Shown piece after piece: positions 20,620 to 64,000 of a DNA stretch of 64,000 nt (position 1 is the first letter of the stretch; every line of letters begins with the position of its first letter). The position numbers were made by a program, and so were the translations under genes. Origin of the DNA: Paramacrobiotus metropolitanus (Eukaryota > Tardigrada > Eutardigrada > Parachela > Macrobiotidae). The notes under the pieces were generated by a model that worked only from the letters and a program-made list of their open reading frames with translations, had not been told where the DNA came from and did no database searches. Location of the stretch: assembly GCF_019649055.1 (NCBI RefSeq), contig NW_026570238.1:682001-746000 (forward strand), given 5' to 3'.

Positions 20620-23172
20620 ATGGTAAGAGCATTCATCTCAACTCCGTTTTTTGCACACTGATTTTGATATTGTTACGTATTGATATAGCATGTACGATTT
20701 CCCTAGGCTCCTGCTACTGCTAGTAATGAACCAATCCGTGTTTTGATCACTGGTGCCGCGGGCCAGATCGCGTACTCCCTGATTCCTCTAATCGCCAAGG
20801 GAGAAGTTTTTGGGCAAAAACAGGTAAATTTTTTACTGTCCACCATTTCACCCTGCAAAGTCGTCTCACTCGGTGCAGCATTTCATCCTGCAAAAAGTCG
20901 TCTCACTCGGTGCAGCCAGTACAGGTTGAGCCCGTTGAAGTATGCATCGAGAGATTCTATTGATATTAGAAGATTTTAGCTTTAATAGCCATAAATTATG
21001 ATAAATGTAAATATTTGAATTGTTCTAAATTCTAATTACTTAACTTACCGTATTGAAAGCATGGTTTCCCTTCCTAGGAAATCATCTTACACCTTTTGGA
21101 TATTCAGCCGATGCTCGGGGTTTTGAATGGAGTGGCTATGGAGATATCGGATTGCGCTTTTCCTCTGCTACGAGGTGTGTCGTGCATTTTTTTTCAAAAT
21201 CTTTTAGTTCAGTTTTCTACCTTTTCCGTGGTTATCGTTATACAAGTCTTCGGTTTAATAACGAGTACTGTATATTGCAGACGTGGTTGCTACTGCGGAT
21301 GTTGCTGCTGCCTTTAAAGGCATCAGCTACGCTTTCCTTGTCGGTGCAATGCCTCGACGCGAGGGTATGGAGCGAAAAGACCTTCTCAAAGCCAATGTTC
21401 GCATTTTCAAAGATCAGGGAGGTGCGCTGGACCAGTTTGCGAAAAAGGACGTCAAGGTGCTTGTGGTCGGCAATCCAGCCAATACGAACGCTCTGATTTG
21501 CAGCAAATACGCACCGTCGATTCCGAAGGAAAACATCACTGCTATGACACGACTAGATCAAAATCGCGCTACTGCTCAGGTGACTTGATAGTTGATAGTG
21601 ATACTGGTCTAATTGAATACTAAAATTATGATACAGTTCTGACATCAGTTTTATACTGACTTTCCTTCGCAGTTACCTGTTACTGATTTGATTTGACTTA
21701 TTTTCGAGTAGCCAAGTCCGTAAACGGGCATGTAAGTCATGTAGACGGGACTTTCGCAGGTATCCTTATTACTTCTCTCAGTTTGTTGGAAGTTTTTTTG
21801 CGTATTACTAATTATCTCCATGAATATACTGTAGGTACAATTGCTCAATTTACAGTAGACATATGATACTCACTTGTGGTACATACTCGTTCTCCTTGTA
21901 AGTTACTATAGTTTTAGCCACTAATGAGTAAATATTTGTTAGTATTGTCTTAACTCAAAACCTGCAACCGTATACACTATTCAGTAAGTAATTCGGAGTG
22001 TGGATATTAGGTTGCTCAACACGTTCAAGCTCGCATTCAGGACGTGCGAAAAGTGATTATTTGGGGGAATCATTCAAACACTCAGTTTCCGGATGCCAGG
22101 TTCGTTGAAGTTCAAAAGGACGGTAGCTGGACTTCCATCAGCAAGGTGCAGCATGATGAAAAATGGTTGAAAGAAAGTTTGATTCCCCTCGTTCAGAAGC
22201 GTGGAGCCGAAGTTATCGCTGCCCGTAAATTGTCGTCAGCTATGTCTGCTGCGCAAGCAGCTGCTGATCACATGCGAAATTGGTTTAACGGCACCGAGAA
22301 AGTAAGTGTTATGAGTATTGAGTATTGTCTATATGGGAAATTTGTACAATACAGCCGAAACGAGCTTTCACTTTGTCGTTTGCTTTTACAGTTATGAGTT
22401 ATGACTTCTTGTATTAATTTTTAGACTTCAGTCTTTTCCCACTGTGTACTGTACTCGTACAGTCTATACTTTATATCTATATTGTGCGGATTATTTTTAC
22501 GTTAGAGCAAGGTCTTGGTTAGAGTATTGAAAGACGTTTTGTTACAGTGTGATAAGGTGTTTTCTGGAACGATTCAAGTGTCATCCTTAGTTTAATTTCT
22601 GTAACGGTTTTTATTTTGTTGGCTGAACTTGCCTCTATAAACTGATACGAACTAACACAAGGACTAATTTTATGCGCGTAATTATACTTTGCCTAGGTAT
22701 TAGGCTGTGATGGTGCAATTATACAGTAGATACTTATGTTGTATTAATTGTATGTCCTTGGAGGCTTGGACTTGGAGTTGCTTATAGAGAGAATATTACT
22801 TGAAGATATTTGAGAAGAGCAAAACGATGTTAAATTTGGTGTGCTAACTAGATTTAATAACCGTTTATTCATCCGCAGTATGATTTTTGAATGTCGTGAT
22901 AATGGACAGGAGTCAGGCTGATCATCATTCTGGAGTCATTTAATGGAATGTTGTTTTTTGCGTAGGACCAGTGGGTCAACATGGCGGTGGTGTCAAAAGG
23001 AGAGTACGGAATTCCAGAAGGCTTGGTGTTTAGCTTTCCTGTAACCGTGGAAAACGGGCAGTGGAAAATTGTGCCTAACCTAGCCATCGATGATTTTTCA
23101 AAGGAAAAATTGAAGATCACTACGACGGAGTTAGAGGAAGAGCGTACTGAGGCACATGCCGCTTGCGAATAA
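20620..23172 (+). CDS. MDH1: cytosolic malate dehydrogenase
   Basis: Six exons: 20620-20622 (only the ATG codon), 20707-20823, 21078-21174, 21281-21579, 22011-22301 and 22966-23172, 337 aa. It interconverts malate and oxaloacetate with NAD(H). Landmarks: [12 protein letters not shown] (Rossmann glycine motif), the substrate loop [15 protein letters not shown] with its arginines, [11 protein letters not shown], the active-site segment MTRLDQNRA, and [13 protein letters not shown] with the catalytic His. Animal MDH1 usually has TRLDHNRA, so the residue after the catalytic Asp is Gln here. There is no N-terminal targeting peptide, fitting the cytosolic form. Splitting the start codon into its own coding exon leaves the ATG directly against a GTAAGA donor. 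Confidence 0.95.
20845..20916. repeat. tandem duplication of about 36 bp in MDH intron 2
   Basis: ATTTCACCCTGCAAAGTCG...GGTGCAGC at 20845-20879 is repeated with a few changes at 20880-20916. It is intronic and shows no coding sense. Confidence 0.85.
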
Positions 23173-29841: not shown

Positions 29842-30688
29842 TTTGATAAAATTCTGAATTGGCTTACTGGCCCTTTATAACAAAAACCGGTCGTAACTCG
29901 TAAGGCTCCGATCGTGGTGCGACAGCAAAAGGAAAGCAAGAACCTTTTCTCAAGGGCTGGAAGCCTGGAACTCTTCGACGACGACATTAGAATTTAGCTA
30001 GCCGGAAGAGTGGAACTGTAATTACAGGATTTGCGTTGGATTTAAACAGTGGTGATTCGTTGGCTACTAATAACGCCCAGTGAAATCGCTGGTACGATTC
30101 GTTCAACTTCCGGGTGGAGGTTGACAATATAATTTAAGAGTTCCATTAAGTACTACAACTGGAAGTGATACACCGTCTTATTTCTTTTCGATTTCAATTT
30201 TCAACAGCAAGCGAGAATATGAAAAATATCAACAATCAATACGATTTTCCTTAATGCTCACGTTGTTCGGGTAACATATGTGAATAAATAATAACTTGTT
30301 AAAAACTTAAAACTTCAGTGCCATTGCCAGCGAAAGGAAAACCCAACATTATTGGTGTGACAAATAAATCGTTGTTGCGGCCTGCGCATTCTCGACAATA
30401 TTTGCACGGTAAGCTACAATACAGTACGTGGTTAACCGTTAACCAGTGCATATGTGTTGTAGCCTGTGCTTGGTATCGTTAGAATTCTTATTAAAAATTC
30501 AGCAGTTTTCTTTGAAAGTCAAAAGCGGGCGAGGTAAATAACTTGAATTCAGGGATCTCTGAGAAACTGAAGTGGATGTGCATGTAATACAATAAAGTCC
30601 CTGGAGAACGGCATTGGCTCGGCACTTGCGGGCTGTGTCTGTCTAGCAGACTCTAGCTTCCACTGCTTCCAGTCTCCATTTTCGACCC
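29842..30688. other. intergenic between divergent eEF1B-delta and COA8 genes
   Basis: Should hold both promoters. An acceptor-like CTGTCTAGCAG ending at 30649 is followed by 13 open codons in frame with the COA8 ATG (LASTASSLHFRP), so a targeting-peptide exon of COA8 may lie here; I cannot place its start. Confidence 0.4.
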
Positions 30689-31212
30689 ATGATGACAACT
30701 CCAAAGAAAAGTTTGAAGCCCGAATCTGTATGGATTCGCGGTGATTTGTATGGGCCACCTGATCCAGTATCGAATCTGCCTCATATTAAGTTTATGGTAC
30801 GGGAAAATGAAACGCATGCAGAGAGGAAATTACGAGAAATGCGCCAAGAAGCTCACGAATGGAACCACACATTTTGGCACGGACACAATACGAAATTTCT
30901 GAAGGTGAATAAATTTTACGACGAATTACTAGTTTATCTTGAACAATTACCTGAAAAAAATTTAGCCTGGCTGCGTTTTTTATTATTTACATTTTGGCTT
31001 TTTCGTTTTAGGAAAAGGAGGACTACATCACTCGTTTTCCAAATAGGAAGTTATCCGCTGATGAGATGTCTGTATTTTATAAAGATTTTCTTGACCGTAA
31101 CCGAAATCTCCACCGGGCGTACAATATGGAGTTGTACAGTAGGAACTTCAGATTGTTATGGCCGGAATTGCTTGTTAGTGTCGAACGACTAATTCGGAGA
31201 CTCCGATTATAA
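30689..31212 (+). CDS. COA8: cytochrome c oxidase assembly factor 8 (COA8/APOPT1)
   Basis: Two exons, 30689-30904 and 31012-31212, phase 0 (CTGAAG|GTGAAT; TTTTAG|GAAAAG), 138 aa. Family core: WIRGDLYGPPDPVSNLPHIK, then HEWNHTFWHGHNTKFLK|EKEDYI. COA8 is a mitochondrial matrix factor that protects complex IV assembly from oxidative damage. At 138 aa the model lacks the N-terminal targeting peptide of the human protein (about 190-200 aa). The frame is open upstream to 30650 with a likely acceptor, so the true start is probably in an unplaced 5' exon. Confidence 0.87.
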
Positions 31213-33217: not shown

Positions 33218-34820
33218 ATGGCGTCTACGAAAATCTCAGCACCACCGTCGGGCACTCGGCCGATGCTTGTGCGTTTGCATCCTGTGGCTATCGTTGGCAT
33301 TTGCGATTTGTATGAACGGAGAAAAGACAAAGCTAATCGTGTAGTGGGTACTCTGATGGGACGAGTGGAAGGGGATGTGGTGGAAGTCACTAATTGTTTC
33401 GCGGTTCCCCATGATGAAGGCGCACAGGTGGGTTCTCATAAAGTTGAATTCTATTCTTATCTCCGAACACTTAAATTTAAGGGATATTAACTTTGATGCT
33501 TTGTTAGACCCCTTTACGTATGGACACTGACTTTGCGCAAAATATGATTGAGTTAACGAAGCGAGCGAGTCCGCAAGAAGATGTCGTTGGATGGTTTTCC
33601 ACGCGACCAGCAGTTCTTGACACATCATTTTACATTCACGATTTCTATGTCCGGCTAAGTAATCCGAACATTATCCACCTTACGATCGATTGCACAGCAG
33701 AATCGGATCGGATGCCGATCAAAGCATACGTTCATTCTACTCTGGGAATCCCTCAAACCTCTAAAGACCCAAAAGATCCCAGTTCTCGGTTCGAACAGGC
33801 CGCTCTCTTCGCGCAGGTGCCTGTGGAGATATATTGCTGGGATGCCGAACGTGTTGGACGTAGGTGGTTACTTTAAAACATTAAGCATTTGTTAATTCAA
33901 AACATTTGTTAATTAGCGGTTTTTGACAAAGTGCTGGGTTTTTGCAGTGGATTTAATTACGAATGGTCGTCTGGATCCTGCTCGAGTGGTTAACATTCCC
34001 ACTGATACGGATCAAGTATTGCAGACAGCGAAGCTTTTGGATGACATGTTAGAAAGCCTGTTGTCTCATGTTGGTAAAGTTTTGGTGAGTGGCTGATTTT
34101 TATGTTTAAAAATGAATGTACCTTACAGTTGTTTTCTTTTACAACTGCAAAGCGTTTTTAAATTTTTGCTATTCTGCTCTGTGCTATCTTTTTCTGATTT
34201 ATATATTTAAATGTTATTAAGACTAGGTACTAGTTTTATTTTATTTACTAGCAGTTCTTGGCTCTAGGTATTAGTAGCGATACACCAAAAAACCGTACAG
34301 TATTCGAATTTCTGAGGTTTGTTATCGGTTATTGAATTGACTGCACAGTGCATCTTGTAAATATCGTACTTACGAGTTAATTAAGAAGCTCGTCGTATAT
34401 CTGTAAGTAGCAGCTAGCACCTGTTCTTGGTTTGTTAACTTTTGGTAGTTTTTGACCCAAAAGCTTTACCCATTCCTACTTGATTTTTATTCGAGCATAA
34501 GTTTTTGCTACAGAAACTTTTGTGTACATGGTGAATTTTGACTAATAATGACGATGTTGCAGAAAGATGAAGTGCCCGCTGATCCTGAAATTGGGCGTGC
34601 GCTGATGGATATAATGGGTACCATTCCAAAGATGGATGACGAAGCGTTTGAGAAAATGGTCAATTCTAGTCGAAAGGTATTTGCTTTATCATCGCTAAAA
34701 CGATTTGTTGTGTTTAGCTTGAAATTCATAATTTTTTAGGACGTGTTGATGGTGATGTATTTGGCAGAATTAGCGAAAGCGCAGTTGGCTCTTCAAGAAA
34801 AGGTCAATGTTCTGCCGTAA
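33218..34820 (+). CDS. EIF3F: translation initiation factor eIF3 subunit F
   Basis: Five exons: 33218-33427, 33508-33859, 33948-34084, 34563-34676 and 34740-34820, 297 aa. eIF3f is one of the two MPN-domain subunits of the eIF3 octamer that loads mRNA onto 40S subunits. Signatures: VRLHPVAIVGICDLYERR, RVVGTLMGRVEGDVVEVTNC, FAVPHDEG, then VVGWFSTRPAVLD, HLTIDC, MPIKAYVHSTLG and the helical tail DVLMVMYLAELAKAQLALQEK. The catalytic JAMM histidine pattern is absent, as in other eIF3f proteins. The second join runs GGAC|GTAGGT to TTTGCAG|TGGAT, giving GLDLI where vertebrates have GVDLI. Confidence 0.95.
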
Positions 34821-35160: not shown

Positions 35161-37039
35161 TCAAAATTGGATAACATAAATAGAAACTAATAACATGGCA
35201 AACGTCACAAAATTAAATGCATAAATCGGTTGTTCCACACCGTTCAGAGCTGCCTCATAAGCCGCAACTTGCTCTTCCTTGACATCTTCCACTTGTACTG
35301 CTGCCACATCGTCTGCGTTAATTTCCGTAAATGTTTCCTGGACGCGGGCCACTACACCGCACGCGATCTTTTTCGATGAGTCAGAGTAATCGAAAGCATC
35401 GTTGGTTTGTCCATATCCACCGAAATTATCGGCCTCTTCACTGATTACCAGCATGCGTCCAATGATACTCCAGTCACCATTGAGCGAAAGGACACTGTCC
35501 GACAGTGTGAAGGTTGCAGCCCCACTGGCTACAGATTGATCCCAGACATTATAAGTGAAAAATTTGAATACGTGTACAGTAGCGTACGAACTTGAACCAG
35601 AAGGCCTAAGCGCTTACAATCGGCACGGATGTTCTCCAGATCGCCGGCATATCGCTTTGTGTCACTGGATTGGCCGCCGGAAGAGTTACTTTGGCGCACG
35701 CCAAAGGGTTTTCCGCCCGAGTTGCATCCATCTTTCAAATTGCCATACTGTAAAATTTAATCGATCTTCCATGTTGTCTGACAGGTAGAAAAATACGTGA
35801 AGTGTTAAAGTACTATATTACATATAAAATTATATGCGCAGTTTTTGCATTTGCATGCATTTTTACATGCCAACTTTCACAAAAAAAGGACAAAATTAGC
35901 AAAATCGACTTACTGAGTAAACTTTGAATCCATGTTGTCCTACAGAATACCAATCCATGAAATAGTATACCAATCCATGCCAAGATTTAATATCTCACCA
36001 ATGGTACTTTAAGCTAATTTCTGGTATACGCTTATAGCATTAAATTTATAATTACCGGGTGTAAGTCCAGATATGTTTCCTGTAATGGTAATTGGTCCTG
36101 TTCCTTCGTTCTGGACAATTTCGATGCTTCCCGATATTTTACCACTTCGATCACTGTTTCCGGAAATAGACACCGCCGCTTTGCTCACAGTATCTTTGGC
36201 AGCGCTGAAAGTTAAAATGATTTGTGCGCATGCAAGTTTTTCAATATTGGGAAAATAGTTCAAAATACCGTTATTGCATTATTTACGCATTATAAAAGCA
36301 CATGGATATTTGGGAGTAGTAATTTGGGCAGTGGCCACTTACATCTATGAAGCTACTGCAAATTTGTTTACTGCATGGCATGTAATTATCCTGTGCGAAT
36401 ACAATATTAGGGAATTTCAGGGTGATAATTACCAACCACAAGCAAGTCAGTAGGTGCATTATTTGCTATTATTAATAGTTTCAACTGAAATAGTTAGTAT
36501 TAGTGATCATTTGACTTATCCGTCGCAGCAGCTGAACTGCACATAACTAAATGCAAAACCTTAAATATCTTAAAAGTTTAAATATCTTAAAAGTTTTTTT
36601 AGTTACTTGCACAATTCTTGTAGCTGGTCCGGGGAAAGTTCACCAATTGGAAAGAAACCAGCTTCCGGCTGAAATCCACGATGCGGTGCCGCATTATTTC
36701 CCCATTCTTGATCCTCTTCCGGTCCGCCTGGCCGATGTTGACCATGCTCACCAAAATGCGGTTCGTGCTCGACATTTTCCGATCCCCTTGTGCAGGGCCA
36801 TGGTGCTCGAATTCTGGATGTTGTTGTTGGTGCTGATGATGCGTCATCCCGTTGTGTGCGTCTTCATAGTCGCCCGCTCCTCCATGGGCAACCGCCCCCG
36901 TATCCGACTGGTCTTCATCACCTCTCCTGTCCATAAAAGCATGATCCTGGTTGTGAGGTGATTGTTGACAGAGGAAACAAGGTAACCGCAACAACAAAAT
37001 TACATAAGGAACGCTAAGCGTTAACAATCGCCGGTTCAT
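35161..37039 (-). CDS. secreted SOD-like pseudoenzyme, His-rich N-terminus, hydrophobic C-terminal tail
   Basis: Exons 37039-36607, 36204-36056, 35939-35914 (26 nt), 35747-35618 and 35528-35161. A signal peptide (LTLSVPYVILLLRLPCFLC) leads into a Gly/His/Glu-rich region (THHQHQQQHPEFEHHGP), then a Cu/Zn-SOD fold (TGPITITGNISGLTPG, YGNLKDGC, RYAGDLENIRAD, SLNGDWSIIGRMLVIS, KKIACGVV). By alignment with the canonical copy at 40896-41867, all six His ligands are replaced (H46K, H48Y, H63P, H71S, H80Y, H120S, standard SOD1 numbering); only D83 and both disulfide cysteines remain. R143 becomes K. The C-terminus is hydrophobic (FNFVTFAMLLVSIYVIQF), suggesting a GPI signal or anchor. It cannot be a normal dismutase. 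Exon 1 changes frame: either an 83-nt intron (about 36757-36675) or a one-base error near a GGGG run; see findings. Length 340 or 368 aa. Confidence 0.8.
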
Positions 37040-38265
37040 TGTGGTGAAATAGTCAATCGGGTGAGTTATGCGACGAAAAAGGAATTCGTCGAATACGTCT
37101 TCAGGTCAAATAACGCCGTCAATATAAGTAATTAAATAATGAGTTAAACAGTAGTATATTTATAAAAATAGTTATGGTTTCAGTTAAGAACGAGTATACC
37201 ACGTCAGTGATCATGCAATGATCCACTCAAATCTGTACACGAAATTATGGCAGTATGTAGAGGTATAAGGATGTTTTGGAAACTTCTGGCAGAGGGGATA
37301 TATTGCAAACTTGCAAAAATATAATTGTAGTATCGGAGAGTTTGTCTTATTTCACCATTTCAAATAAAATAAAGAAAAAACAGTATTACATTTTACGGTT
37401 ATCTTCGTAAATACTGACAGTTATGATAAGTTCTGTCTTTTTTCGTTTTCGGTTGTTGCGCCCGTGCACGCAACCACCGGTATCAGTTTTTTCGAAATAT
37501 GAGTTCTGAACGGTGACATTTTTGGCCGTTGGGCAAATTTTTGGTGCTTTATTTCCTTTCGGCAAAAGCCAGCAACGAAAGAAAATTTCCGAGGGCTTAA
37601 TTTTGTCGGCTAATCGGCTTGCGATGTCGGGCAGGCTACAAGTCTGCGTTAAAGTATTACATACAGCTAGACTTTCAGTCAGTAATTCAATCAAAATTAT
37701 AACAGTACGGTACTACCGTACTGCAAATAAATCAAATGCACCAGATTTTCTAATTGTAACTACAAAGCTATTGATTTAACTTTCTCCGTGAAAATTTTTG
37801 ATAGGTTTTTTTCAGATGCGCTAGTTTGGTAACTAGTAGCATCTGAAGATTTGTGTAGCAGTATATATATACCGCTTATCGCACACCTTCTTATGGTATG
37901 CAAAGTTGTCACAAAACAACGAAACATTAACAGTTTGTGGTCTGATATAATATTGTGATGTGATATTAATAGTGTAATATTAGTATTCTGTGGTACTTCC
38001 TTATGAGTGCCGAATACAGAGCGCACCAGTAGGTTCACACCATCTCGTATTTCAGCAGTCTTTGGTGATAAAATTCCGAACAGAATATCAGATTTTGTTT
38101 AAAAAACATTGTTGCCGATATAAGAACACTGTTTCGAATATTGAGTACGTATTTCATGACCGCAACCAAAATACAGGCAAAAGAAGTCAAGATAAATGTT
38201 TACCAAAGGAAAAATCATTAAGAAATGCGCAAATCATTTGTAAAACACACCGAAACAATTAAAGG
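37040..38265. other. intergenic between SOD genes, one doubtful ORF
   Basis: Minus frame 37694-37386 lacks an ATG but could be a 3' exon after the acceptor TTTAACGCAG (near 37649): it reads TCSLPDIASRLADKIKPSE, then Cys-containing and basic sequence (RNNRKRKK). A further minus frame near 38060-37985 (SPKTAEIRDGVNLLVRS) might be upstream of it. No family is recognised and I give it low weight. Confidence 0.25.
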
Positions 38266-40149
38266 TTACAGCTCGTTACTGTTGACATTATGTTGTGGAT
38301 TTATTTCCTGTGTGGCGATACCAATTACTCCACACGCTATGGGTTCACCAACGTTGCCGTTGTCCAGACTTTCCGTGCTGTTTTCTCGCCCGTAATCGTC
38401 CTCATTCTGATAGATTACAATGGCTCTTCCGATGACGCTGTAATCTCCATTCAAACTAAATGCACTGCTTCGCATGTTCAGAACAGCCGTGCCCCGAGCT
38501 GCAAAAAGGCAAGATATTGTATGTGCTTTACTTACAAGCAACTAAAGTATAACGGCATGATGTAACCCTTGCGGCATCGCTAAAATTTCTCTTTGCTTTT
38601 GATACAACATTGCGCATTATTCCAGGTTGAATACTATTACACGCTAATAGGTTTTTTTAAATTGCATGCTATGTCTTACAGTACTTCTGGTCAGAAATTT
38701 ACTTACCATTGGCATTAATGTTTCCTAGATCGCCGGCATGACGCTCAGGATCACTGGGGCCCCCATGATGATAATTGTCAGGATTGTAATCCGCTCCAGC
38801 ATTGCCACAACCATCTTTGATGTTGCCGTATTCCTAAAAATTTGTATAAACGACATGCAGATGAAGCACATGAAGTGACTGGTGACACAATGTTTTTTAC
38901 ACTGCATTGGCCTTAATGCGGAACTAATATCTTCAAATTTAACCAAATGTCTTGCCAGTTATGTCACAATCACACTTATCGGGTTATAATAACCATCACA
39001 TCAACCGCAGTCCTACGATTCCTATCGTTTACCTGTATGTGCACTCCATGTTTCCCTAAAAAGTATACAAAATTATACCAAACAGTAAACCCCAATTAAA
39101 TACTGGGAACTGAGCCTTATCGTTTGCTTGAGCCTTTGTACCTCTTGTAAGGCCACTGATAGCTCCAGAGATAGTGACTGGCCCGGCTCCGTAGGCCTGG
39201 TCAAACTGGATGGTTCCAGAAACATCCGAGCTAAAGCGATAGATAGTTAAGTACGTAATTAATAGCAAGCAAAAGGACACTACCGGCACTCGTATGTAAT
39301 TGTAACGCGCCGTTTTTGCATAGGTGTGGTTGAAGTGGGTACTTCTATTGAAAACAGGATTGTAATCTAAATAGAACACGTGGAGTATATAGTTCTGTAG
39401 ATATAGAAGTATGCAATGCCGTGACTGCTATCAAAAGGGATGCTTATTGCTTGGATAGCTGTAGACTGTTACAAATCTAAAGAAATGCAGGTATTCATGT
39501 AAGGGACATAATTTATTAACAGATTTGTTGGATTTGACGCATTTAATTTTCTTACTCGTCAGCTCCTAAGACAGCAATTGCTTGAGTGGTGATGAAAGCA
39601 GGCCTGAAAACAAGGAAGAATCAAATACCAAGTTTTTCTACGATACGTGTATAGCGGTAGATAAGTAGTTTTAACTGTTGTTAACAACACAACGTTGTGT
39701 CATCTATATAGTTTTGACATCATTAATTATCAAGAATTCGCCCAGTACTTGTACACAGCACACAAATGCCATAAAAAACGAGCTTAAATGCAATAATAAC
39801 TGACTTGTGGAAAGCAAGCGTTATCATAGCTGTTTTGAACTTCTGCATAATTAAAGTATTACGACCAAATACGCGGACGTATTATATGGCTCTACTACTG
39901 CTAATAGTGAAAACTATCGAACAACCAAAAAACAAAGCATGAATTGAACCAAAACTTTAGCCTCTTTGTACAAGTTTACTGCTGGCTTACGCACCCATTT
40001 TCGCAGCCTGCCGCTCCAGCAATTTCCGGCTCGCCTTCGACAACAACGGCAGGACCCGTTGATCGCCAGCTAGCGGTTGTGGATGTTCTGGATGAACGCC
40101 CTTGTACTAACGCGCCACACAAACAGAAAACAATAACTGCAGACCACAT
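38266..40149 (-). CDS. extracellular Cu/Zn SOD-family protein with partly lost metal ligands
   Basis: Six exons: 40149-39995, 39603-39556, 39230-39142, 39055-39033 (23 nt), 38833-38707 and 38498-38266, 224 aa. A signal peptide (MWSAVIVFCLCGALVQG) and a linker precede the SOD fold: SGTIQFDQAYGAGPVTISG, KHGVHIQ|EYGNIKDGCGNAG, NYHHGGPSDPERHAGDLG, LNGDYSVIGRAIVIYQNEDD, IACGVIGIA. Against the canonical paralogue, H46, H71, H80 and D83 remain, while H48 is Q, H63 is D, H120 is Y and R143 is P. The zinc site is mostly kept (with Asp for the bridging His) and the copper site mostly lost, so normal dismutation is unlikely. Tardigrade SODs with an altered copper ligand are known from published structural work. 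The C-terminus has an extra Asn-rich tail. Confidence 0.87.
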
Positions 40150-40895
40150 CTTGACTTTATATTTAAAAAATTAATGAATCTTCCGATTAAAAAGTTTTCA
40201 ACATGCCGACCTCGCCAGTTCCCTGCGAATCTCCCGAGAGAACATCAAAGGCAGACCAAAAGCGGAAAAACCATGAAAAATATGAAAATATGATTTGAGG
40301 CCCAAACTACACCAGAAGCAGCAAAGACTAGCTGGGAGGCACATTTGTGAAGACGTTTACCTTCCGGCATACTGTTGGTTAGAAGTTTTGTCTCGTAATA
40401 ACACCGGCAGACTGAATAGCTTTCGTTTGTTAGCGTCTTTTTAACGATGGTAAATCTAAGCCAAAAGGACCCGCTTGCTAGTAACCAAAAGGTGCGCACT
40501 ACATTCTCTATTTTCAGTCAAATCTATTGACAAAATTATACTTACTGGATACTGGTTGCAAAATTAGTCGCTCCTATCCTACGAGTACATGCACAGTAGA
40601 AAGTATCTTCATAGACACTTGCACTGACCAAAGGTCACTGGAATGAACCTTTTACTAATTCAACCCGGGAAAGCGAAACTCGCTATTACAACCAATCGCA
40701 AATGTAAAACAATCAGGTTAACTGTCATTTTAGCCGGTAAGAAATTCGCAACCACCACCACCACCGCTATGAGAACTCTCTATAAAATCATGCATTAAAA
40801 CACATTAGAAAGGTAGAAGAATGTGTTACAGTTTGAACTCTGAACCATAATCAATGAAAAAACCTCGCAGGGCTGAATTGATTTTCGCAAATATT
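40150..40895. other. intergenic between SOD genes
   Basis: Promoter side of the secreted SOD and 3' flank of the canonical SOD. A CACCACCACCACC run near 40752 is the only simple repeat seen. Confidence 0.4.
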
Positions 40896-41867
40896 CTACT
40901 TTGTGACACCAATGACTCCACAGGCCAGACGGGGTCCAGCGTTACCGGTCTTCTTGCTCTCATCATCACCTCCTTTGCCCAGATCATCCTTCTTTTCATG
41001 GACGACCATGGCGCGGCCAACGATACTATTCTGTCCTTCCAGAGAAATTTGCGCATCCTCAATGCTCAATTTCACGCTACCATCCGCTGCAGACATACAA
41101 TAATTCTACAACACTTTCAAATCTATTATGAGCACATTATGAGCTACTATGAGCACATACAGTTATGAAAATTTTCTGACGCGACATTAGTGATTAAAGT
41201 AAATAACCAGCAAATGTCATTAACATACATGCAGCAATACGCAAACATCCAATAAATGACAAAAATCGTCTTAAAAATAAAGCGATAATAATACAACAAA
41301 ATCACTGGCAATCTAATGTTGACTGTCAGCTAAACATTGTTCCGCAGCTGAGCACTGACGAAATACTTACAGCCAGCAGTGACATTGCCCAAATCTCCAA
41401 CATGACGCTCAGTATCCTTAGGACCACCATGGTTCTTGCCATATGGATTGAAATGCGCGCCCGCACTGGTGCATCCGTTGGTCAAATCACCGAATTCACT
41501 GAAAAATTCACAGCATCAGCTTAGGCCATTCAAAACACGCAAGACGAATCTAGTCTGCGAAGTGCATGGGGATTATCCTGCAAACAGGCGCACAATACAT
41601 TCTGCAAGTTCAGCCTGCAAACCGGCAAACAGCAAAACTGTTTGCTGCCGTTATAAGTAACTTACTGAACATGGAAACCATGCTCTCCTGCAAAGTAAGC
41701 CGACATTAGATAAACAAACGGCAATCCCAGAACACCTTTTTACCGGGGGCCAATCCTTTCAGTTCTCCGCTGATTTTCACAGGTGCACCGGGACCAGCCT
41801 GCTCGAACTGTACGACACCCTTCACCGGAGAATCGCCGCAAAGAATGGCAACAGCTTTGATAACCAT
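40896..41867 (-). CDS. SOD1: canonical intracellular Cu/Zn superoxide dismutase
   Basis: Four exons: 41867-41744, 41687-41666 (22 nt), 41498-41371 and 41086-40896, 154 aa, the usual SOD1 length. It begins [17 protein letters not shown] without signal peptide. All ligands are present: EHGFHVH (H46, H48; the second His codon is split by intron 2), GAHFNP (H63), [15 protein letters not shown] (H71, H80, D83) and VVHEKKDD (H120), plus the active-site arginine in [10 protein letters not shown]. It converts superoxide to oxygen and hydrogen peroxide in the cytosol. It is the intact reference copy for the two altered paralogues lying downstream in the same orientation. Confidence 0.95.
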
Positions 41868-50185: not shown

Positions 50186-53100
50186 ATGGATCAGCTAAGC
50201 AATAGCAGCGATCACAAATCACACACTATCATGACCGCACCAAGTGGCTCAACTGGATTCACTAACAAACGCCCCAGCGAAGCAATATACTTGCGTAAGT
50301 CATCGGGCGCCCGGAATTGGTTCCAAACCCAGCTGAATCGATTGCGTGGTGGTGGGGGACGGAGAAATCGACGCCACTTTGCTGCCAGTACGAGCTGCAG
50401 TCCTAATGATCCCTTTAGTCAGGACTTGACAGGACGAGCCGGTCGCCTATCACGCAGCCGTAGTCCCGCTGGCTCCCAGCATGATAAGCGACATTCCGTT
50501 GGCCAAAAGAAGCGCTTTCTCCAAACCCTGGATGCACAAGAAATTGCCGGTTCCCTGTCCTCAGCTGATCGCAGGACAGGTACTGTTACAGCTGCATTTT
50601 TGTACTGCACTTTATGTAGATTTTGTGCTTTTTCATCTGCCCTATATTGCGTGGTAATTACAAGTACGCTTGAGTAAGTAAAAAATAACTGAATCCATTT
50701 GCATAATTATGGTAGAAATGCGTGGAAAAAATGAATACAGATGAAAGCATGAAGAAAAGTTGCACACCCAAATAATAAGTACAATTCATAATGTTTACCT
50801 AAGCATGTGTTATAAGTGAACATACAATGAATTTTCTCTGTTGACCATTTCTTTCTTATAATTAAGGATGCCGCTGGACGTTTGTATTCGATCCTTCCGG
50901 CCGCTTGGCTTATTATTGGTGAGCGGATATGCGTAGATTATTGATACTAGATTGACTGTTATCACCGTATCGCGGACATGGTTATTACATACGTCATAGT
51001 GTGGGAACGATTGGCGATAGTGTGACACCTGTCAGGATCACTTAGGATAAATCGCTGACAGTTGACAAGTAACCTATATAACAATCTCGCAAACATAACC
51101 GCGAAAGAATTCCAGTTTGTTACACGTAGGCAGCTAATTATTGCGGCCTACGGAAGATGCAATTTTTGGTCCACCAAAGCCAATATTACAGCATTAACGC
51201 TGTATGTACTGTACGAAGTATACCATTGTCATAATTATATTTTTAGGTCCTGTGTTGTCAGTATCGCCTTTTTGTACAATTTATGGGTCATCGTCTACCG
51301 GTTTTCCTTTCAAGAAATTAATAGCTCAAATGTTCATTTATGGATGCCTTTGGATTACTTTGCTGATATACTGTACCTGTGCGATATTGCTTTTAATTTT
51401 CGTACCGGTTATCTGGAAGATGGCGTATTACAAACCGAACCAACGAAATTACGAATGCATTACATGAACACGACATTATTTTATGTGGATTGTCTCTGCC
51501 TCTTACCGCTGGATATTTTATATTTGTCATTGGGGTTTAATTCAGCACTGCGTAGTTTTCGATTGGTGAAAATTTATCGATTCTGGGGCTTTCTGGACCG
51601 CACGGAACGACATACCAATTATCCCAATGTTTTCCGTAGTGTGGTGTTGATTCATTACCTGTTGGCGTTGTTCCACTGGAATGCATGCATTTATTATTTG
51701 CTCTCCTCGTGCCGGTTCTGTGACTTTCGTGCTAATTGGTCCAAACCGGAAGACCAGCTGGATACAGTGCGGCTGTACCTGTACGCTCTGTACTGGTCAA
51801 CACTGTTCTTAACGAATGTGGGTGATATTCCCCGACCGGAATCCAGAGTCGAACACATATTTGTCATATTGGAGCTAATATGCGGCCTGCTCTTGTTTGC
51901 TACCGTGCTGGGCCACATAGCGAATATTGTGGCTAATGTTGCTGCTGCGCGAAAGGAATTTCAAGGTAAAACAGAATCAGTCGCATTTGTATGTTTTGCC
52001 ACGCTGCAGCAATCGCGAAAGGAACACTTCAACATTTATGTTCAAGAGCAACGCACACTGAAAAGGGCTTGTTATACCTGTGTGCATAGTGAATCCGATT
52101 ATATGATGCAGCACATATACATTGTACATAACTAATCGATAGCCTCTGTTATCAGCATAGTGAACATCAAGCTGCAAAATATATTACGGAAAGGTTTTAA
52201 CAAACTACTGGATTTCAAAAAGAGTTTATAATGCATTATTTGCAGGCTGTATGGTAATTACGCAACAGAGGCAATGAAAATCGGTCTAAGAGTTTTCTGG
52301 TGATGTCTTGCTAAATATTTAATGCTAACTGCTCATCGAAATATCATTACCATAGTGCAAGTAGCGATGCGTAAGCACAATAAAGTTGTACTATCCATGC
52401 GCGGATGATTTATTTTCACGTCAGATTACATATTACCCAGACCGTCGAGGTTTTCGCCGATGTAGATGTGAACTTTATGAAAATGTCATATTCGTAGTAA
52501 AATGACGGTTATTTGTGGATTTATCAGCGCAACATTTACAAACTTCCCGGCAATAACTCAGCATCCTGTCAAAATGAAAATTTGTAAAATTATTTGCTTA
52601 TTAATTCCCATGACAGGGCTGATTGTAAATGGATCTTATCAATCTTCAAAAGAATTGTCGTCGTATGCTCCTTTCGACCACGCTAACGTAGGAAAGGATA
52701 CTTTTTGTCTTAACAATCTTAAAAGACTGCATGCAGAAAACGTAGTCTACTTTCACACATCACGCAATGGTTAGCACTGAACATAAAAATCTCTTGTCAG
52801 GTCAAGAAAACATTTCGTCAAAACCACATTCATTTTGAGGCACGCACACGATGCCATAACGGATGACCGGATCCGCACGGTAAACAGGGAAGAGTAATTA
52901 CTATTTCGCTATTACCCAGCTGATATCAACCATCCCGTTCGTGTGCGGATTATGCAAATATCGCTGATATTTTGCACACCCATGCACAATGCGGCAGGCC
53001 GTCACATATATGCGGATGCAGTGTACATATATATATCAGAGCTCAAAACGTTGCAGCATATGGGCAAAATATGGTATTGTAGATTCGGTGCGAGCAATGT

Positions 53101-55984
53101 CTTTACAGGCTTTTTGTAAATGTGTTGGCAATCAGACAATACAACAAACAATTGCTTTTTTGCAATTGGCTGTTATTACAATTTATTATACTTCGAAAAT
53201 TAATATTACATACCGTTTTTTAACTGCAAAATCCCATGAGTTGCAGGCATGCTGCACATTTCACTAAAATTGTACATATTGTTGGAACGAAGGAAGTTTT
53301 GTAAATGGTTTTTGTAGCTGGGAAAACAGTACGATGTTTTTGACTTTATAATTTTTCTTACGCCGTATAACTTATGGATGCGTACGGCATGATAAACTAG
53401 AAAGCAGATCTAAAGTTACTGTAGCTGGAACAAATGGAACGGCGCGGGTATCGGGTTCCGAGTCTGTTAACTCTGTTAAGCGGTGAATTGCAGATCATGA
53501 TCTGTAGAGCATCCCGCTAAATTTCTTAATGAACCTTACGCACGTCCCCGCATCCTTTACACTTGTTCCTATATCCCTGCGTCTGGTAGTAAATTTCCGC
53601 TTGCGTTTGCTTAAGCAATAGCATTGGTTTATATGCTCTAGTACGGCTAATCCTGTCAATGGAGGATAATCTAACATAAACGAAGCCGCAGGAATCCACG
53701 TAATCAATTTCCAACATCATTTGTTTTTGTGTCGCAGCAAAGCTGGATAATGTGAAGACATACATGAATCTACGACGCGTGCCGGACCATCTACAGAAAA
53801 AGGTCATTAAATGGTTCGATTATCTGTGGATGACCAAAAAGTCGTCTGACGAAGAAAAGTCCGTCATGGCATGTCTGCCGGATAAACTCAAAGCGGAAAT
53901 AGCCATTCATGTACACCTGGATACGCTGAAGCGAGTGGAAATTTTTCAGAACACCGAGGCTGGTTTCCTCTGTGAACTGGTACTGCGATTGCGTCCTGTG
54001 CTTTTCTCTCCCGGTGATTACATTTGTCGCAAAGGTTGGTTAAAAAAACACACCCATGGGCCCATGGCATCTTTTAAAATAATATATCTTTTCTTGCTAG
54101 GCTTACGTAATTGGTTTAGTTAACGTGGTCCTATATAACACATATTCAGTATAAAATTTTAATCTATACATATGTGTCAATCTACCAAATACAGGAAAAA
54201 TATATGTCGGTTATTAACTAGAAGCCCCACAAATAAGAACAACGTTTACGGCAGTTAAAATATTGGCTACTGATATGGTGCATTTTTGTAGGTGAAGTTG
54301 GCAAAGACATGTACATTGTGGCTCGTGGAAAACTGCAAGTGGTGGCTGACAATGGGCGAACTGTATTAGCCACACTGAAAGCCGGAAGTTACTTCGGAGA
54401 GATCTCAGTACTTAATATGGGTACTTTGGGTAACCGGAGGACAGCAAGTGTGCGTTCCGTCGGCTACTCAGACCTTTTCTGCCTTAGTAAACAGGATATG
54501 TGGGACGTATTACAAGAGTATCCCGCTGCGCGGGTCAGATTGGAAGCCATTGCTCAAAAGCGTTTGCGCAAGTACGAGAAAAGTCCACTGGAAAAAGGTG
54601 AGTGAAAATTACGTTGTTGCGGTTAGGCTTCACCGCTTCGGCAATCAGAAAAAAATCGGAAATAACAAAATTATTTGTAGATGGTTGTGGTTTATATATG
54701 TTCTTAAATAAACTCAAACAATATTGTCGGAACCGCAAATCGCACCTGACTTTTTCTGAATAGAAATTAATTAGATTACGAGTACTGAACTTCAAAGTTT
54801 GTCACAGAAAAAATTTTTGCTTATGGCAGATGCTCGTAAACATCGGTATATATACTGCTCAAACTCACGTACTACGAGTTCTCTTGATACTTTACTGAGG
54901 AATCTACTGTTGTATTAAAGGCAGCTGCCGAAAAACATTTATCTGGATACGTTATCAGCATTTCAGGGCACTTCCATAAAGCAGGTGAAATTAAATACGG
55001 GGTTTTAATTTGTTTAATGGTGATTGACAAAATCCGGCGTACATGCAGTGCTCTAGCATTACCCGTTGACAAACTGCTCTAGTCGACAACGGAGGAAAGT
55101 GTGGCTTGCAGATACTTGCGGACAATGTTTTCCTGCGACCCTTGCATCCGTTGTTTAATTATTCTGTTTGCACTGCAGCCTCGATGAATCGGAGTCAAAG
55201 TACTCCCGGCCTGGTGGAGCCCGGTGTGACCCATTCACCGCGCATCGACCGGGCCACCATCATTCGCATGCCTTCAATGCCCGCAGGACTTCCTGGACAG
55301 AGCTTCATGGACCACACGCCTTCCCTGCCCCATGAGCAGGGCCCCGCCCACGTCGCATCCGACCCTTCCGCCACCACGCTCTCACTACCGGCTTCCACCA
55401 AGGCCCCCCTGCTGCAGTTGCCCGACCGGTCCAAAGAGACCGCTGCTGTGCTGATTGTTCCTTCCGCGCTGCCCATGTCTTCCAGTCGTACCGGCACCGG
55501 CTACCACTCTCCCCAACCGCCCCATTCCATGACGGCCTCCTTTAGTCCCCTTCCTTCCGTTCCCATGTCCACCGCGCCGGTGGCCGCAGTGACCACTACT
55601 GCATTCCAGCAACACCTAACCGTTCCCAACCGGCGACCGGTTAATGTTACCAGCTCGCATACCGTGAGCCGATCCACGACACCGGGGGCATTAACATTAA
55701 TAGCCGATGACGGACATCATTGTCAAGTAACTCCCTCAACGACCGAAGAGTTAATAGCGGAAATACGCCGGCTGCGCGAGCGCCTAGTGCAGCTCGAGAC
55801 GGAGAACGCTAGTATGAGTATTAAGCTAAGTCAACAGCAGTGGGAAGTGGAGCATCGCTTGGCTGAGATCGAGATGCATATATGCGCCGGAAGTGAGAGT
55901 CCCACGAGTGGAAGTGACTTTTCAGAGCTGACTGTTTCAAATTTGCCTACTCTTGAGAAACCAAACAGGGAATCGGTTATATAA
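50186..55984 (+). CDS. cyclic-nucleotide-gated channel, CNGA type
   Basis: Six exons: 50186-50579, 50867-50918, 51247-51965, 53738-54034, 54292-54597 and 55179-55984, 857 aa. It is a plasma-membrane cation channel opened by cGMP or cAMP. A long polar N-terminus leads to [14 protein letters not shown]1-S6 in exon 3 (S4 [15 protein letters not shown]), the pore [16 protein letters not shown], the C-linker ([29 protein letters not shown]) and the binding domain with [23 protein letters not shown] and NRRTASV, which keeps the nucleotide-contact Arg-Thr. The last exon carries a Ser/Pro/Thr-rich stretch and a coiled coil ([18 protein letters not shown]) like the CLZ of alpha subunits. The filter is NVGD where CNGA proteins usually have TIGE. 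Intron 3 is about 1.8 kb, the largest in the gene. Confidence 0.93.
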
Positions 55985-58143: not shown

Positions 58144-58821
58144 TTTTGCGATAATACAGCACCCGGTTTCAGGCTCACGTAGATCAGTTTATACTTTCGT
58201 GAAAATAAATCATCGAGAACGGTGATCAATGATTTCAAAAATCGCACAGAACTCTTCCAAATATACATAAAATAATAAACTGCACGAAAAATTCTCTGCT
58301 GTGTAAAAACCACAACAAGCGCAAATTCGAGATAAAGTTCGTGTTGTCGCTGTGACACATTTTGCTGCAGTTTTGATCGGGGACTCGTGGAGGGGACAGT
58401 AAGATAAACCGGAACTGAGCACCCCCGTCTATCAGGCGGCAGTCTGATGTGTATAAGCGTAGTCGATCCAGCATTCCTTCTTAGCTAAAATCTGGATTCT
58501 GGAAGGGCTTTTGGTTAGAACATGGAAACTTTTCATCACGGTATTCTTTGAAGTCAAGTACTTTGCACTACTTGCTGTAAGTTTGGTTCATTTGGATAAA
58601 AATTTGATAGTCTGAATAATATATGCTGTTCGGAAAGGCAACATGTGTTGGAGAACACAGACGGCTAATGCGGAGAAAGTGGGATTCTGACTCATTACAT
58701 GAATTTTGGATTCTTGTGCTGCCTGTGCACCCTTTGTCACGCTTCCATTTGCTTGAAGCTGGGCCCAAATAATTAATTAGTCAGGCGGGTTTAGATTTTA
58801 CTAGTTCTGAAAGGATTAAAC
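58144..58821. other. intergenic between divergent ARL2 and hyccin genes
   Basis: About 0.7 kb that should contain both promoters. Minus frames at 58134-58474 overlap each other and have no family signature. Confidence 0.4.
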
Positions 58822-60395
58822 ATGAGTGATCGCTCTGGAAATCAGACGAAAATGGATTCCCACAAATCCCTCAAAGTAACCCTGGATTTCGTGAGGGACG
58901 TGGAGCAGTTGTCTGTAGATTCGTTAATCAGACAGGGATCTTCCTTTCATTCGGATGAAAAGCTGTTGGGCAATCTGATGGAATTTCTCTTCTCGGAGCA
59001 GTCGGCCGAAGAACAGGCGCTTCTGGAACGCTTCTATTACCAGCTCCTCCGCTGTTATCGAACATACGATGAGCACTTAATCAAGTTTGTCCACCAGTTC
59101 GTGTTTTGTTTGATATGGCGCCATTTCCAGGACACCATGAAATCCCGGCAGTATGGCATCACCATTCGACCAGGACTGGATGCCTTATTGATTGTGGTGT
59201 ACAATTTGATGATTGTTGACAACGAAGGCCAATATAAAACCGAGAGCTATACCATACCGTCCCTAGCTAATCTCAGCCTGTATCATGATCCGGCCGAATT
59301 TACGGTGAACATTTTGAAAGGCAGTGCGGGCGGACGAGGTCGCAGCGAGACAGATGAAGAGCGCCGCGTGGTCATGGAAAGCCATCCTCCGGTGGAAAGT
59401 TTGACGCGCACAAGAAAATGGACGGTATTCTGCGTTCTGCTGAGGACTGTCGCGCTGGATTTAGCGTATTACTCACGGGCATGCCAAAAAAGTGCTATCA
59501 TTATGGGTCGGTTGCTCCTGCCTGTAAGCGCGGCCAGCGCCGTCCGTGCTGATTTGGAACTAACTATCCGCAAGGAACCCAGACCTTTTGATAAACTTAA
59601 TTTCAAGTCTTTTTCGGTTGGAAAAGATAAGAACAGGTACTTAACGTTCTCGTTTCACGGCTTGCGTTTAGCTCGCGTATTATCATTGGAATGTCTTTTC
59701 AGCTAGGCACTGTCGGCATCATGAGTCTGCAGTGTAGTGAGAAGGCTTTGGAAATGATAATTTTGATTTTTGAGATTTATTTCGACATAGCACCTGGCTT
59801 GTGAAAATTTATTTTTTGATTTTGCAGGATGAGTCAAGTGGTTCAGCCCAAAACAATTTTGGACGAACGGTTTTTGTTGGACTTTCTGGATATTCTGTAT
59901 ATCTTAGCTTACCAGGGATACTTCGACGAATCTTTGGGTCTTGTTACCGACATCTTGGACGAAGGTGAATATCGTTTCCTGGCATCAGTGGTGCTCCTGG
60001 CTAGCGCCATAAAAAACCGCTTAGAAACCGGTAAACAAGATCCGGACGAGTTAGAGGAAGTGCCGCCGATTGGTGTCAGCGCAGCAGAAGATGAGAAAGA
60101 GAAGCCAAGCCGTAAAATCTCGCATTCCAGCGGTTCTGTGCGAGAGAAACGTCGAAAATCCTTTATGTCACGTAAAGAAACAATGGTTCCGTCTGGATCT
60201 AAAGATCGCGGCGGAGATTCCGTCACCGAAGTTCCGGAGAATGAAAACTCATGGAGATCGGAGACGCCTAATGACTCGATGATGGATATAGGCGACGGGT
60301 TGCACCGGTCTGCGGAGGCCTCACCCCAGCAGTCCAAAGTTTCGCCACGAACGTTTCAGGGTAATTCTCCCCATTCCAGTGAAACCATCATCTAA
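58822..60395 (+). CDS. hyccin (FAM126 family), PI4KA complex subunit
   Basis: Two exons, 58822-59636 and 59828-60395, phase 2 (GAACAG|GTACTT; TTTGCAG|GATGAG), 460 aa. The hyccin fold is seen in FLFSEQSAEEQALLERFYYQ, GLDALLIVVYNLMIVDNEGQ, TIPSLANLSLYHDPAEF and LLDFLDILYILAYQGYFDES. Hyccin binds TTC7 and helps EFR3 recruit PI 4-kinase alpha to the plasma membrane to make PI4P. The C-terminal third (after about residue 350) is polar, Ser/Glu/Lys-rich and probably disordered, as in vertebrate FAM126A. Only one intron is found, unlike the many in vertebrates. Confidence 0.85.
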
Positions 60396-60876
60396 TCATT
60401 AATGTGTCTTTGATTTGATAGGCTTATTGTAATTTACTGTGTTTGCGCTGTCCGGTGGTTAAGTGATTCACGCCTTTGATCTGTTTTTCAGTATGATTTT
60501 GGGTTTTATATGTACATACATTTGATTTTACTGCACCACTTTCTGTTTGTATTGTGAGCGCATTTTTTGAGATTTAGTTTTACTGGTCAGTACTTCGGAC
60601 TTTAGTTTTACTGGTCAGTAGTTTAATATTTAGTTAGGTTGTTTGATTTGTATCCGCACCACTCCTGAAAACGTGTTTCCGTTTGGAACCATTGAAACTT
60701 GGCAATAAATGTAGAAGTGCATCCTGATAGGTGGTACGCAGCAGTGCGCTACTGTATTTTGGATCTAATGCGGTTCAGTTTCCGATTCCGCATTGCCACC
60801 TGCTGAAATCTAGGTTTTTAATGTAGCTTCCCAGGAAATAATAGTAACCGATCATCTATACTCCGAAGGATTAGCG
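60396..60876. other. intergenic with short direct repeat
   Basis: Between hyccin and CFAP299, same strand. TTTAGTTTTACTGGTCAGTA occurs twice, near 60572 and 60600, probably in the hyccin 3' UTR. The CFAP299 promoter should be here. Confidence 0.5.
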
Positions 60877-63556: not shown

Positions 63557-64000
63557 CTATTTCCTGCCATCCATGGGCACAGTGGACAATCCCACGGCCG
63601 ATGCGTGTGCTAGCAGCAATTTGGCTATCTGCTGCGTTTCCAAATATAAACGTGCTTCTTTGAGCCAGTCCTGCGCAACTTTCCTCGGCTCGCCTTTCAA
63701 CTGACCAATAAACCTGACGGCTGTTTCCACATCCCCCCGCTGCATACATTTGCGAGCCGTTCCCAATATGCGAAAAGTGTCCAACTGGGTTGAATCGAAT
63801 TCTTTTTGCGAAGATAAATCGTAACAGGTTTCATTAACCAAAACAGATTGCAGATAAGAAAGGAAATATTGATAAAGACTGCTGTGGTTTTCATCAATCA
63901 GGGCCACTTTCCGGGCGGCATTCCGTAACCGGCTAAACCGTTCACGCAGACCATCTTCGGTGTACACGCCACGTACTAAAGCCTCTTCAGGAACAGCCTG
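63557..64000 (-). CDS. IMMT: MICOS subunit MIC60 (mitofilin), C-terminal part
   Basis: Partial: the frame is open from the window edge to a TAG at 63557, 147 residues. It matches the conserved mitofilin signature: VPEEALVRGVYTEDGLRERF, VALIDENHSSLYQYFLSYLQ, GDVETAVRFIGQLKGEP, then QDWLKEARLYLETQQI. MIC60 anchors cristae junctions in the inner mitochondrial membrane, and this region is the one that binds MIC19 and shapes membrane. The N-terminal targeting peptide, membrane segment and coiled coil would lie beyond 64000. No intron is seen in this part. Confidence 0.95.
   Translation of the reverse strand, partial: QAVPEEALVRGVYTEDGLRERFSRLRNAARKVALIDENHSSLYQYFLSYLQSVLVNETCYDLSSQKEFDSTQLDTFRILGTARKCMQRGDVETAVRFIGQLKGEPRKVAQDWLKEARLYLETQQIAKLLLAHASAVGLSTVPMDGRK

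Follow-up and report, generated by a model that had tools for sequence, protein, structure and literature searches.

RvSOD15 and other unusual superoxide dismutases (SODs) of the tardigrade Ramazzottius varieornatus belong to an expanded family, carry altered metal-binding residues and have perhaps lost SOD function (Sim and Inoue 2023, as described in a passage of PMC11313143). In oysters, cavortin (Cg-EcSOD) and dominin are extracellular SOD-domain proteins without SOD activity which have been retained and are abundant in plasma; the roles proposed for them in the cited sections are metal handling and pathogen binding (PMC6530089, PMC9118643). Domain II of CCS has the SOD fold and, as outlined in part of PMC13017621, has lost the copper site. 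Furthermore, Cu-only SODs and the CSRP/Rsod proteins are extracellular or membrane-anchored SOD-fold proteins, and tardigrade and moth CSRPs are said, in the relevant excerpts, to be without an obvious copper site (PMC13017621, PMC9524095).

Here we analyse a window of 64,000 nucleotides from the tardigrade Paramacrobiotus metropolitanus (contig NW_026570238.1, positions 682,001 to 746,000). Spliced models place three head-to-tail Cu/Zn SOD genes, copies A, B and C, on its minus strand within less than 7 kb. With a probability of roughly 70%, B and C, which belong to the lineage of L007, are exported pseudoenzymes whose SOD fold was kept by selection after loss of the copper site, and A is an ordinary cytosolic SOD1. 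L007 is a fully liganded SOD on another contig (C10), apparently secreted and with a GPI- or TM-like tail. The features, in coordinates of the window, are as follows:

40896–41867, minus strand: copy A, cytosolic-type SOD1 of 154 amino acids, with all ligands and R143 in the spliced model; four exons at 41867–41744, 41687–41666, 41498–41371 and 41086–40896
38266–40149, minus strand: copy B, probably secreted SOD-fold protein of 224 amino acids (spliced model, Pfam, ligand alignment); six exons at 40149–39995, 39603–39556, 39230–39142, 39055–39033, 38833–38707 and 38498–38266
39995–40149, minus strand: exon 1 of copy B, with the signal-peptide-like start MWSAVIVFCLCGALVQG (hydropathy 2.88 and inspection by eye)
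35161–37039, minus strand: copy C, SOD-fold protein in which D83 is the sole ligand kept (spliced model, alignment); exons at 37039–36607 (with an inner frame change or a further intron), 36204–36056, 35939–35914, 35747–35618 and 35528–35161
37039–36968, minus strand: signal-like start of copy C (hydropathy and inspection by eye)
36752–36967, minus strand: histidine-rich linker of copy C, 10 His in 72 amino acids, in the ATG frame up to a candidate 83-base intron, a reading which hinges on the frame chosen for the first coding exon
35164–35223, minus strand: hydrophobic C-terminal end of copy C, GPI- or TM-like (Kyte-Doolittle)

Copies B and C have GT-AG junctions and open SOD-domain exons. 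Each matches the whole Pfam domain Sod_Cu (PF00080), for which the curated cut-off is 28.9 bits (B 143.1 bits, E = 9e-42; C 101.1 bits, E = 8.3e-29). The exons of copy A exceed this cut-off as well; since the aligner was queried with a model of A first assembled by eye, that model has the backing of splice sites and homology but no independent confirmation. In a sequence search of the PDB, SOD chains are among the matches listed for all three copies, with E-values of 8.7e-67 for A (a single-domain chain), 2.7e-43 for B and 2.3e-30 for C. Copy A is 67% identical to PDB chain 1fun, which we take to be human SOD1. The three same-strand neighbouring SOD-fold genes of a preliminary description, made from the sequence alone, are borne out by these models and matches. 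Genome-wide, 13 SOD-family loci were found in 170 Mb.

The alignment assigns to copy A the ligands H46, H48, H63, H71, H80, D83 and H120, plus R143. At the same positions copy B has H46, Q48, D63, H71, H80, D83, Y120 and P143 (H48Q, H63D, H120Y, R143P). Its bridging histidine is replaced by aspartate, and the four zinc positions read D/H/H/D; a Tyr at position 63, read by eye, was discarded in favour of the aligned Asp. Copy C has K46, Y48, P63, Y80, D83, S120 and K143, and its position 71 is S or G, varying with the alignment. The copper ligands (H46, H48, H63, H120) are kept in 4/4, 1/4 and 0/4 cases in A, B and C respectively, and the zinc ligands (H63, H71, H80, D83) in 4/4, 3/4 (position 63 being Asp) and 1/4. 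These assignments agree with the preliminary description, which had given A six histidines, D83 and R143, B only H46, H71, H80 and D83, and C only D83; the Asp at the bridging position of B is a refinement. Judged by their aligned residues, B and C each lack the full copper and the full zinc ligand set of an active Cu/Zn superoxide dismutase.

Signal-like starts were judged by hydropathy and by eye. The N-terminus of B scores 2.88, that of A 2.60 (its first strand, without a signal peptide) and that of C 2.29, the weakest but one among the ten N-termini scored. Since copy A outscores it, the signal peptide of C is among the least sure. A hydrophobic tail is common to C and L007, with Kyte-Doolittle maxima over 15 residues of 2.15 and 1.97, respectively. 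In Pfam, B and C each show a single Sod_Cu stretch, and no domain other than Sod_Cu was found in them.

Is the fold of these copies maintained? Nine intact copies share 28 invariant non-ligand columns, of which B keeps 26 and C 19; for the ligand and R143 columns the counts are 4/8 and 1/8. When each intact copy was left out in turn, 28/28 to 28/31 non-ligand columns were kept, so that the framework of B is about as conserved as that of an active enzyme. The equivalent control for ligand retention is circular, since a complete ligand set is what defines an intact copy. For ligand loss, Fisher tests gave p values of 0.014 (B) and 0.008 (C), which are not independent, as B and C were chosen for ligand loss. 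All three copies retain the disulfide cysteines C57 and C146. The framework conservation claimed in the preliminary description accordingly extends to the cysteines in all copies and to B as a whole, and is looser in C.

A dN/dS check, proposed in that description, rejects a neutral rate for both copies: fixing dN/dS at 1 costs a 2ΔlnL of 291 on the branch of B and 189 on that of C. The test used 141 gap-free codons from 11 of the 13 SOD-family models, leaving out L009 (CCS) and L010 (a broken copy). Synonymous sites are saturated or nearly so, with dS in 11 pairs ranging from 1.8 to values too large to estimate; the rate test therefore gives an average across the entire history and is blind to recent relaxation, and pairwise dN/dS is uninformative for the same reason. 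B and C both have codon branch lengths at the bound, and the omegas of the M0 and branch models (0.003–0.006) are unreliable as values; the conclusion drawn from these models is limited to the rejection of omega = 1. These results support constraint on the fold, as opposed to plain decay, best for B. The earlier argument for such selection therefore stands firmly for B and with less certainty for C, with its 19/28 columns and a first coding exon which is out of frame if read as a single exon.

Because of this exon, copy C could be decaying, but an account in which B is a retained pseudoenzyme and C a gene without present function is unlikely. It would suit the loss of 9/28 non-ligand invariant residues, the branch of C, the longest apart from CCS, and the weak signal-like start. 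However, the SOD-domain exons and the 62-residue tail of C contain no stop or frameshift, and a neutral rate is rejected when averaged over the history of this copy. Furthermore, an 83-base GT-AG intron inside the first coding exon, ranking 4 of 44 candidates by score, would restore one open frame. A small indel error in the exon is also possible, because the matching assembly is nanopore-based with Illumina polishing (PMC8277472). An alternative first exon, the signal-like ORF at 36283–36465 in the long intron, was rejected: judged by eye, the phase 0 of its good donor does not match the phase 2 required at the SOD exon.

With the ligand columns removed, B, C and L007 form a clade with support of 97/99. 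This tree has 13 rows (11 models and two PDB chains), contains long branches (C 2.31) and leaves out CCS (L009, with a very long branch of 3.34) and the broken L010. Introns lie at q50 phase 0 in both B and L007, at q51 phase 0 in C and at q49 phase 2 in A. Common descent of B and C with L007, apart from their neighbour A, is thus supported by the sequence comparison. L010, on contig C514, is a broken L007-like copy; with its frame lost and several ligands kept, it represents the opposite pattern to B and C (one case).

The preliminary description had instead proposed a series of stepwise ligand loss in which the altered copies gained signal peptides. A tandem duplication of A, followed by ligand loss in B and then in C, would fit the adjacent head-to-tail arrangement, and the clustering of the genes among so few SOD-family loci points to some ancient tandem event. 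The AU test nevertheless rejects the groupings that join A with the altered copies (A+B+C p = 0.0025; A+B p = 0.0022; A+C p = 0.025), and the ligand columns of the alignment contain no replacement common to B and C. In addition, signal-like N-termini are present in 7/9 intact SODs of this genome, so a gain by B and C is not needed, and this part of the proposal was dropped. We regard the stepwise route as very improbable.

The copper chaperone CCS works inside the cell. Regulation of this chaperone, or of another SOD, through binding of B and C, as reported for the inert leporipoxvirus SOD homologues, is very improbable: there are published examples of decoy SODs (Teoh 2003, cited in a passage of PMC10211241) and a CCS gene is present (L009, with a SOD domain and MxCxxC and CxC motifs), but B and C begin with signal-like sequences.

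We return to exported pseudoenzymes of the L007-type lineage. The gene models, the ligand loss, the lineage and the long-term constraint are established here, and secretion, anchoring, zinc binding and the role are inferred. The ancestor of B and C would have been an extracellular SOD lineage of which L007 is the intact member. Copy B is predicted to be a soluble secreted protein which, with three of the four copper histidines gone, would not cycle copper; zinc could still be held at D63/H71/H80/D83. Copy C is predicted to be a cell-surface protein, GPI- or TM-held, with a barrel devoid of metal, and its histidine-rich linker may bind copper or zinc. Since both copies kept the fold and lost most or all metal-holding residues, they probably have another job outside the cell. 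By analogy with oyster cavortin and dominin, the likeliest role would be extracellular binding of a metal, a microbial surface or a partner protein. Of the earlier suggestion that SOD was repurposed into extracellular non-dismutases, the end point is likely, given the ligands and N-termini; the stepwise route and the signal-peptide gain fall away. A more elaborate version, which we consider doubtful, would make C an L007-type surface SOD rebuilt for copper or zinc capture or sensing, in which a membrane-held, metal-free barrel carries a flexible histidine-rich arm doing the metal work, with B as the soluble zinc-only counterpart.

SOD gene counts in tardigrades are readily read as antioxidant capacity, and two SOD-fold genes at this locus should not encode ordinary dismutases. 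This agrees with the caution published for RvSOD15 (in the passage of PMC11313143 cited above). The genome also offers a test set within one species: a cytosolic SOD with all ligands, the fully liganded GPI/TM-like L007, a copy lacking most copper ligands, a copy nearly devoid of ligands and the broken copy on C514.

How do B and C relate to the known systems? Like domain II of CCS, as portrayed in the source excerpt, copy B has lost the copper site, with zinc positions that are potentially usable. Unlike CCS, however, B and C are without the extra copper-binding N-terminal domain (Pfam finds Sod_Cu only), and CCS is encoded by the separate gene L009. CSRP/Rsod proteins, as the cited sections present them, have several SOD domains per protein and have lost the zinc side, whereas there is a single SOD domain in each of B and C, and most of the zinc side survives in B. 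The loss of copper ligands in B and C would fit extracellular pseudoenzymes that work like cavortin and dominin. These are mollusc plasma proteins, whereas a GPI/TM-like tail and a histidine-rich linker mark copy C; the grouping of B and C with L007 of the same genome suggests an origin independent of the oyster proteins. RvSOD15 is, like B and C, a tardigrade SOD-fold protein with changed metal-binding residues. Going by its description in PMC11313143, one histidine is replaced (H87V), compared with three copper histidines lost in B and all in C. According to these sources, tardigrades (RvSOD15) and oysters (cavortin and dominin) were known to have inactive SOD-fold proteins before, and B and C add members to them.

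The window, G000:C18:682001-746000, holds three Cu/Zn SOD-family gene copies on the minus strand, arranged head-to-tail and named A, B and C. Their exons were modelled with a small spliced aligner using the hand-spliced product of A as query:

41867-40896, minus strand: copy A, four coding exons by spliced alignment (the query being A itself)
40149-38266, minus strand: copy B, six exons forming a single open frame of 224 aa
36204-35161, minus strand: SOD domain and tail of copy C, four exons

The B protein begins with MWSAVIVFCLCGALVQG. In the alignments, A possesses all six histidine ligands together with D83 and R143. The corresponding positions of B are H46, Q48, D63, H71, H80, D83, Y120 and P143, while those of C are K46, Y48, P63, S or G at 71, Y80, D83, S120 and K143. 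Gene models and alignments thus establish that three SOD copies exist, with ligand loss in B and C, and the residue states assigned to them in the preliminary description are correct. The zinc positions of B read D/H/H/D, a predicted site which could bind zinc.

The first coding stretch of C is more difficult to model. From an ATG at 37039 to a donor at 36607, it encodes a signal-like start followed by a histidine-rich part; as a single exon, it is out of frame with the SOD exon. Inside this stretch, 44 GT-AG introns are possible which restore one open frame. We prefer by eye a candidate of 83 bases (36751-36669; fourth of the 44 by score, without a good pyrimidine tract) because it retains most of what looks like coding sequence. 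Instead of an intron, the stretch may contain an indel introduced by the assembly or a genuine break. We take the genome to be that of Paramacrobiotus sp. TYO, listed by NCBI as P. metropolitanus; no sequence matched a named tardigrade protein, and two cytochrome b5 searches of the PDB failed to bring up the tardigrade entry 7BWH. The published TYO assembly is described as combining nanopore and Illumina reads (PMC8277472). Within the long intron of C, an ORF (36283-36465, minus strand) has by eye the look of a signal peptide and a GTAAGT donor, its phase being mismatched to the SOD exon; it may reflect chance or an alternative first exon.

A Pfam scan of 17 window ORFs matched eight neighbours of the cluster, all ordinary genes:

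10684-11370, minus strand: Otopetrin
22011-22394, plus strand: Ldh_1_C
30647-31189, plus strand: COA8
33508-33873, plus strand: JAB domain
51059-54602, plus strand: ion channel and cyclic-nucleotide domain
58795-60392, plus strand: Hyccin
60814-61656, plus strand: DUF4464
63560-64000, minus strand: Mitofilin

A PF00080 profile search of the whole genome (169.8 Mb, 533 contigs) returned 24 exon matches in 13 loci, three of which lie in the window. Genome searches with B or C as query, in which only the best candidates were scored, added no further locus. The ten outside loci (L001-L010) were modelled alongside A, B and C. Eight of them (L001-L008) are intact-looking SODs with every ligand present, making nine intact copies including A. 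L009 is a copper chaperone CCS, so called because of an MxCxxC motif upstream of the SOD domain and a CxC motif after it. L010 (G000:C514:1-6000, on a contig of 13 kb) resembles L007, with pieces 76-86% identical in DNA. Its first SOD exon is unaligned, its reading frame breaks ahead of D83 and another residue stands in place of C57; H48, H63, H71, H120 and R143 are still present. It is a broken relative of L007.

By eye and hydropathy, seven intact copies have a signal-like N-terminus; of the other two, A has none and the start of L004 could not be placed. The signal-like start is in frame with the SOD exon in L001, L002, L003, L005, L006 and L008, and joins it through a consistent splice in L007. 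The best 9-residue hydropathy means are 2.88 for B, 2.29 for C, 3.09 for L007, 2.02 for L001 and 2.63-3.41 for the others. The maximum of A (2.60) falls on the SOD domain's first strand and not on a signal peptide, hence hydropathy alone cannot tell signal-like starts from A. Confidence is lowest for the starts of C and L001. C and L007 have hydrophobic-ended tails of the same kind (62 and 56 residues), and we infer a putative GPI or membrane anchor in both; B has only 16 residues beyond the SOD domain. L007 (G000:C10:1446000-1451500), with all ligands, a signal-like start and a GPI/TM-like tail, is possibly a membrane-anchored single-domain Cu/Zn SOD of an animal. In the intact L001 (contig C12), L006 and L008 (both C28), low-complexity linkers of 253, 96 and 57 residues separate the signal-like start from the SOD domain. 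They contain 0, 2 and 1 histidines respectively, versus 10 in the 72 linker residues of C, read up to the candidate intron.

B, C and L007 form one group with support of 83/78 on all columns and 97/99 once the seven ligand columns and R143 are masked, a precaution taken because shared losses could otherwise draw rows together. Forcing A+B+C together costs 23.4 lnL (AU p 0.0025), A+B 22.3 lnL (p 0.0022) and A+C 11.4 lnL (p 0.025); a sister relation of B and C (p 0.39) is decided neither way. With its long branches and few other forks resolved, the tree does not give the deeper order of the family. By identity, A matches the PDB SOD chain 1fun at 67%, and B matches L007 at 50%, L004 at 49% and A at 44%. 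C matches B and L007 at 40%, 1fun at 41% and A at 34%, so that identity alone would not place it. Intron positions relative to the query fit the grouping only loosely: q50 phase 0 in B and L007, q51 phase 0 in C and also L006, q49 phase 2 in A, and q48 and q52 in L004 and L005. As B and C group with L007 and against A, the altered copies derive from a lineage with signal-like starts. The stepwise A to B to C series proposed earlier is therefore disfavoured, window order not being a time series, and no gain of signal-like starts by B and C has to be assumed. The three-gene cluster is probably the trace of an old tandem duplication.

Selection on the fold, as opposed to plain decay, had also been proposed. 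Synonymous sites are saturated or nearly so in 11 pairs (pS 0.68-0.82, dS from 1.8 to beyond estimation). In a codon model of 141 gap-free codons from 11 copies, fixing omega at 1 gave 2dlnL of 291 for the B branch and 189 for the C branch, but both branch lengths are at the bound, which makes omega values unreliable and recent relaxation still possible. The nine intact copies agree on a single residue in 36 of the 141 columns, of which 28 are non-ligand and eight ligand or R143. B retains 26/28 and 4/8 of these, C 19/28 and 1/8 (one-sided Fisher p 0.014 and 0.008, not fair tests because B and C were selected for ligand loss). Each intact copy, scored against the remaining ones, keeps 28/28 to 28/31 of the non-ligand columns; its ligand columns stand at 8/8 because intact was defined by ligands. 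The framework of B is thus conserved like that of an active copy and its metal site is not, so that selection on the fold is clearly supported for B. For C, the codon model points the same way but the framework is looser, and a decaying gene is the main alternative to a retained pseudoenzyme. The broken L010 offers one contrasting case of decay: its frame is lost while several ligands are kept.

B and C are best seen as SOD-fold pseudoenzymes that are predicted to be exported; they belong to a known class of proteins, with an ancestry unlike that first proposed. A literature search over mainly open-access papers found no published account of the three P. metropolitanus copies. For tardigrades in general, an expanded set of SOD genes has been described (PMC6652013). 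The oyster proteins cavortin and dominin are reported as extracellular SOD-domain proteins without activity, for which metal and pathogen binding have been proposed (PMC6530089), and most extracellular SODs of oysters have apparently lost activity via missing ligands (PMC9118643). The CSRPs of a moth and of tardigrades are described as having no obvious copper site (PMC13017621).
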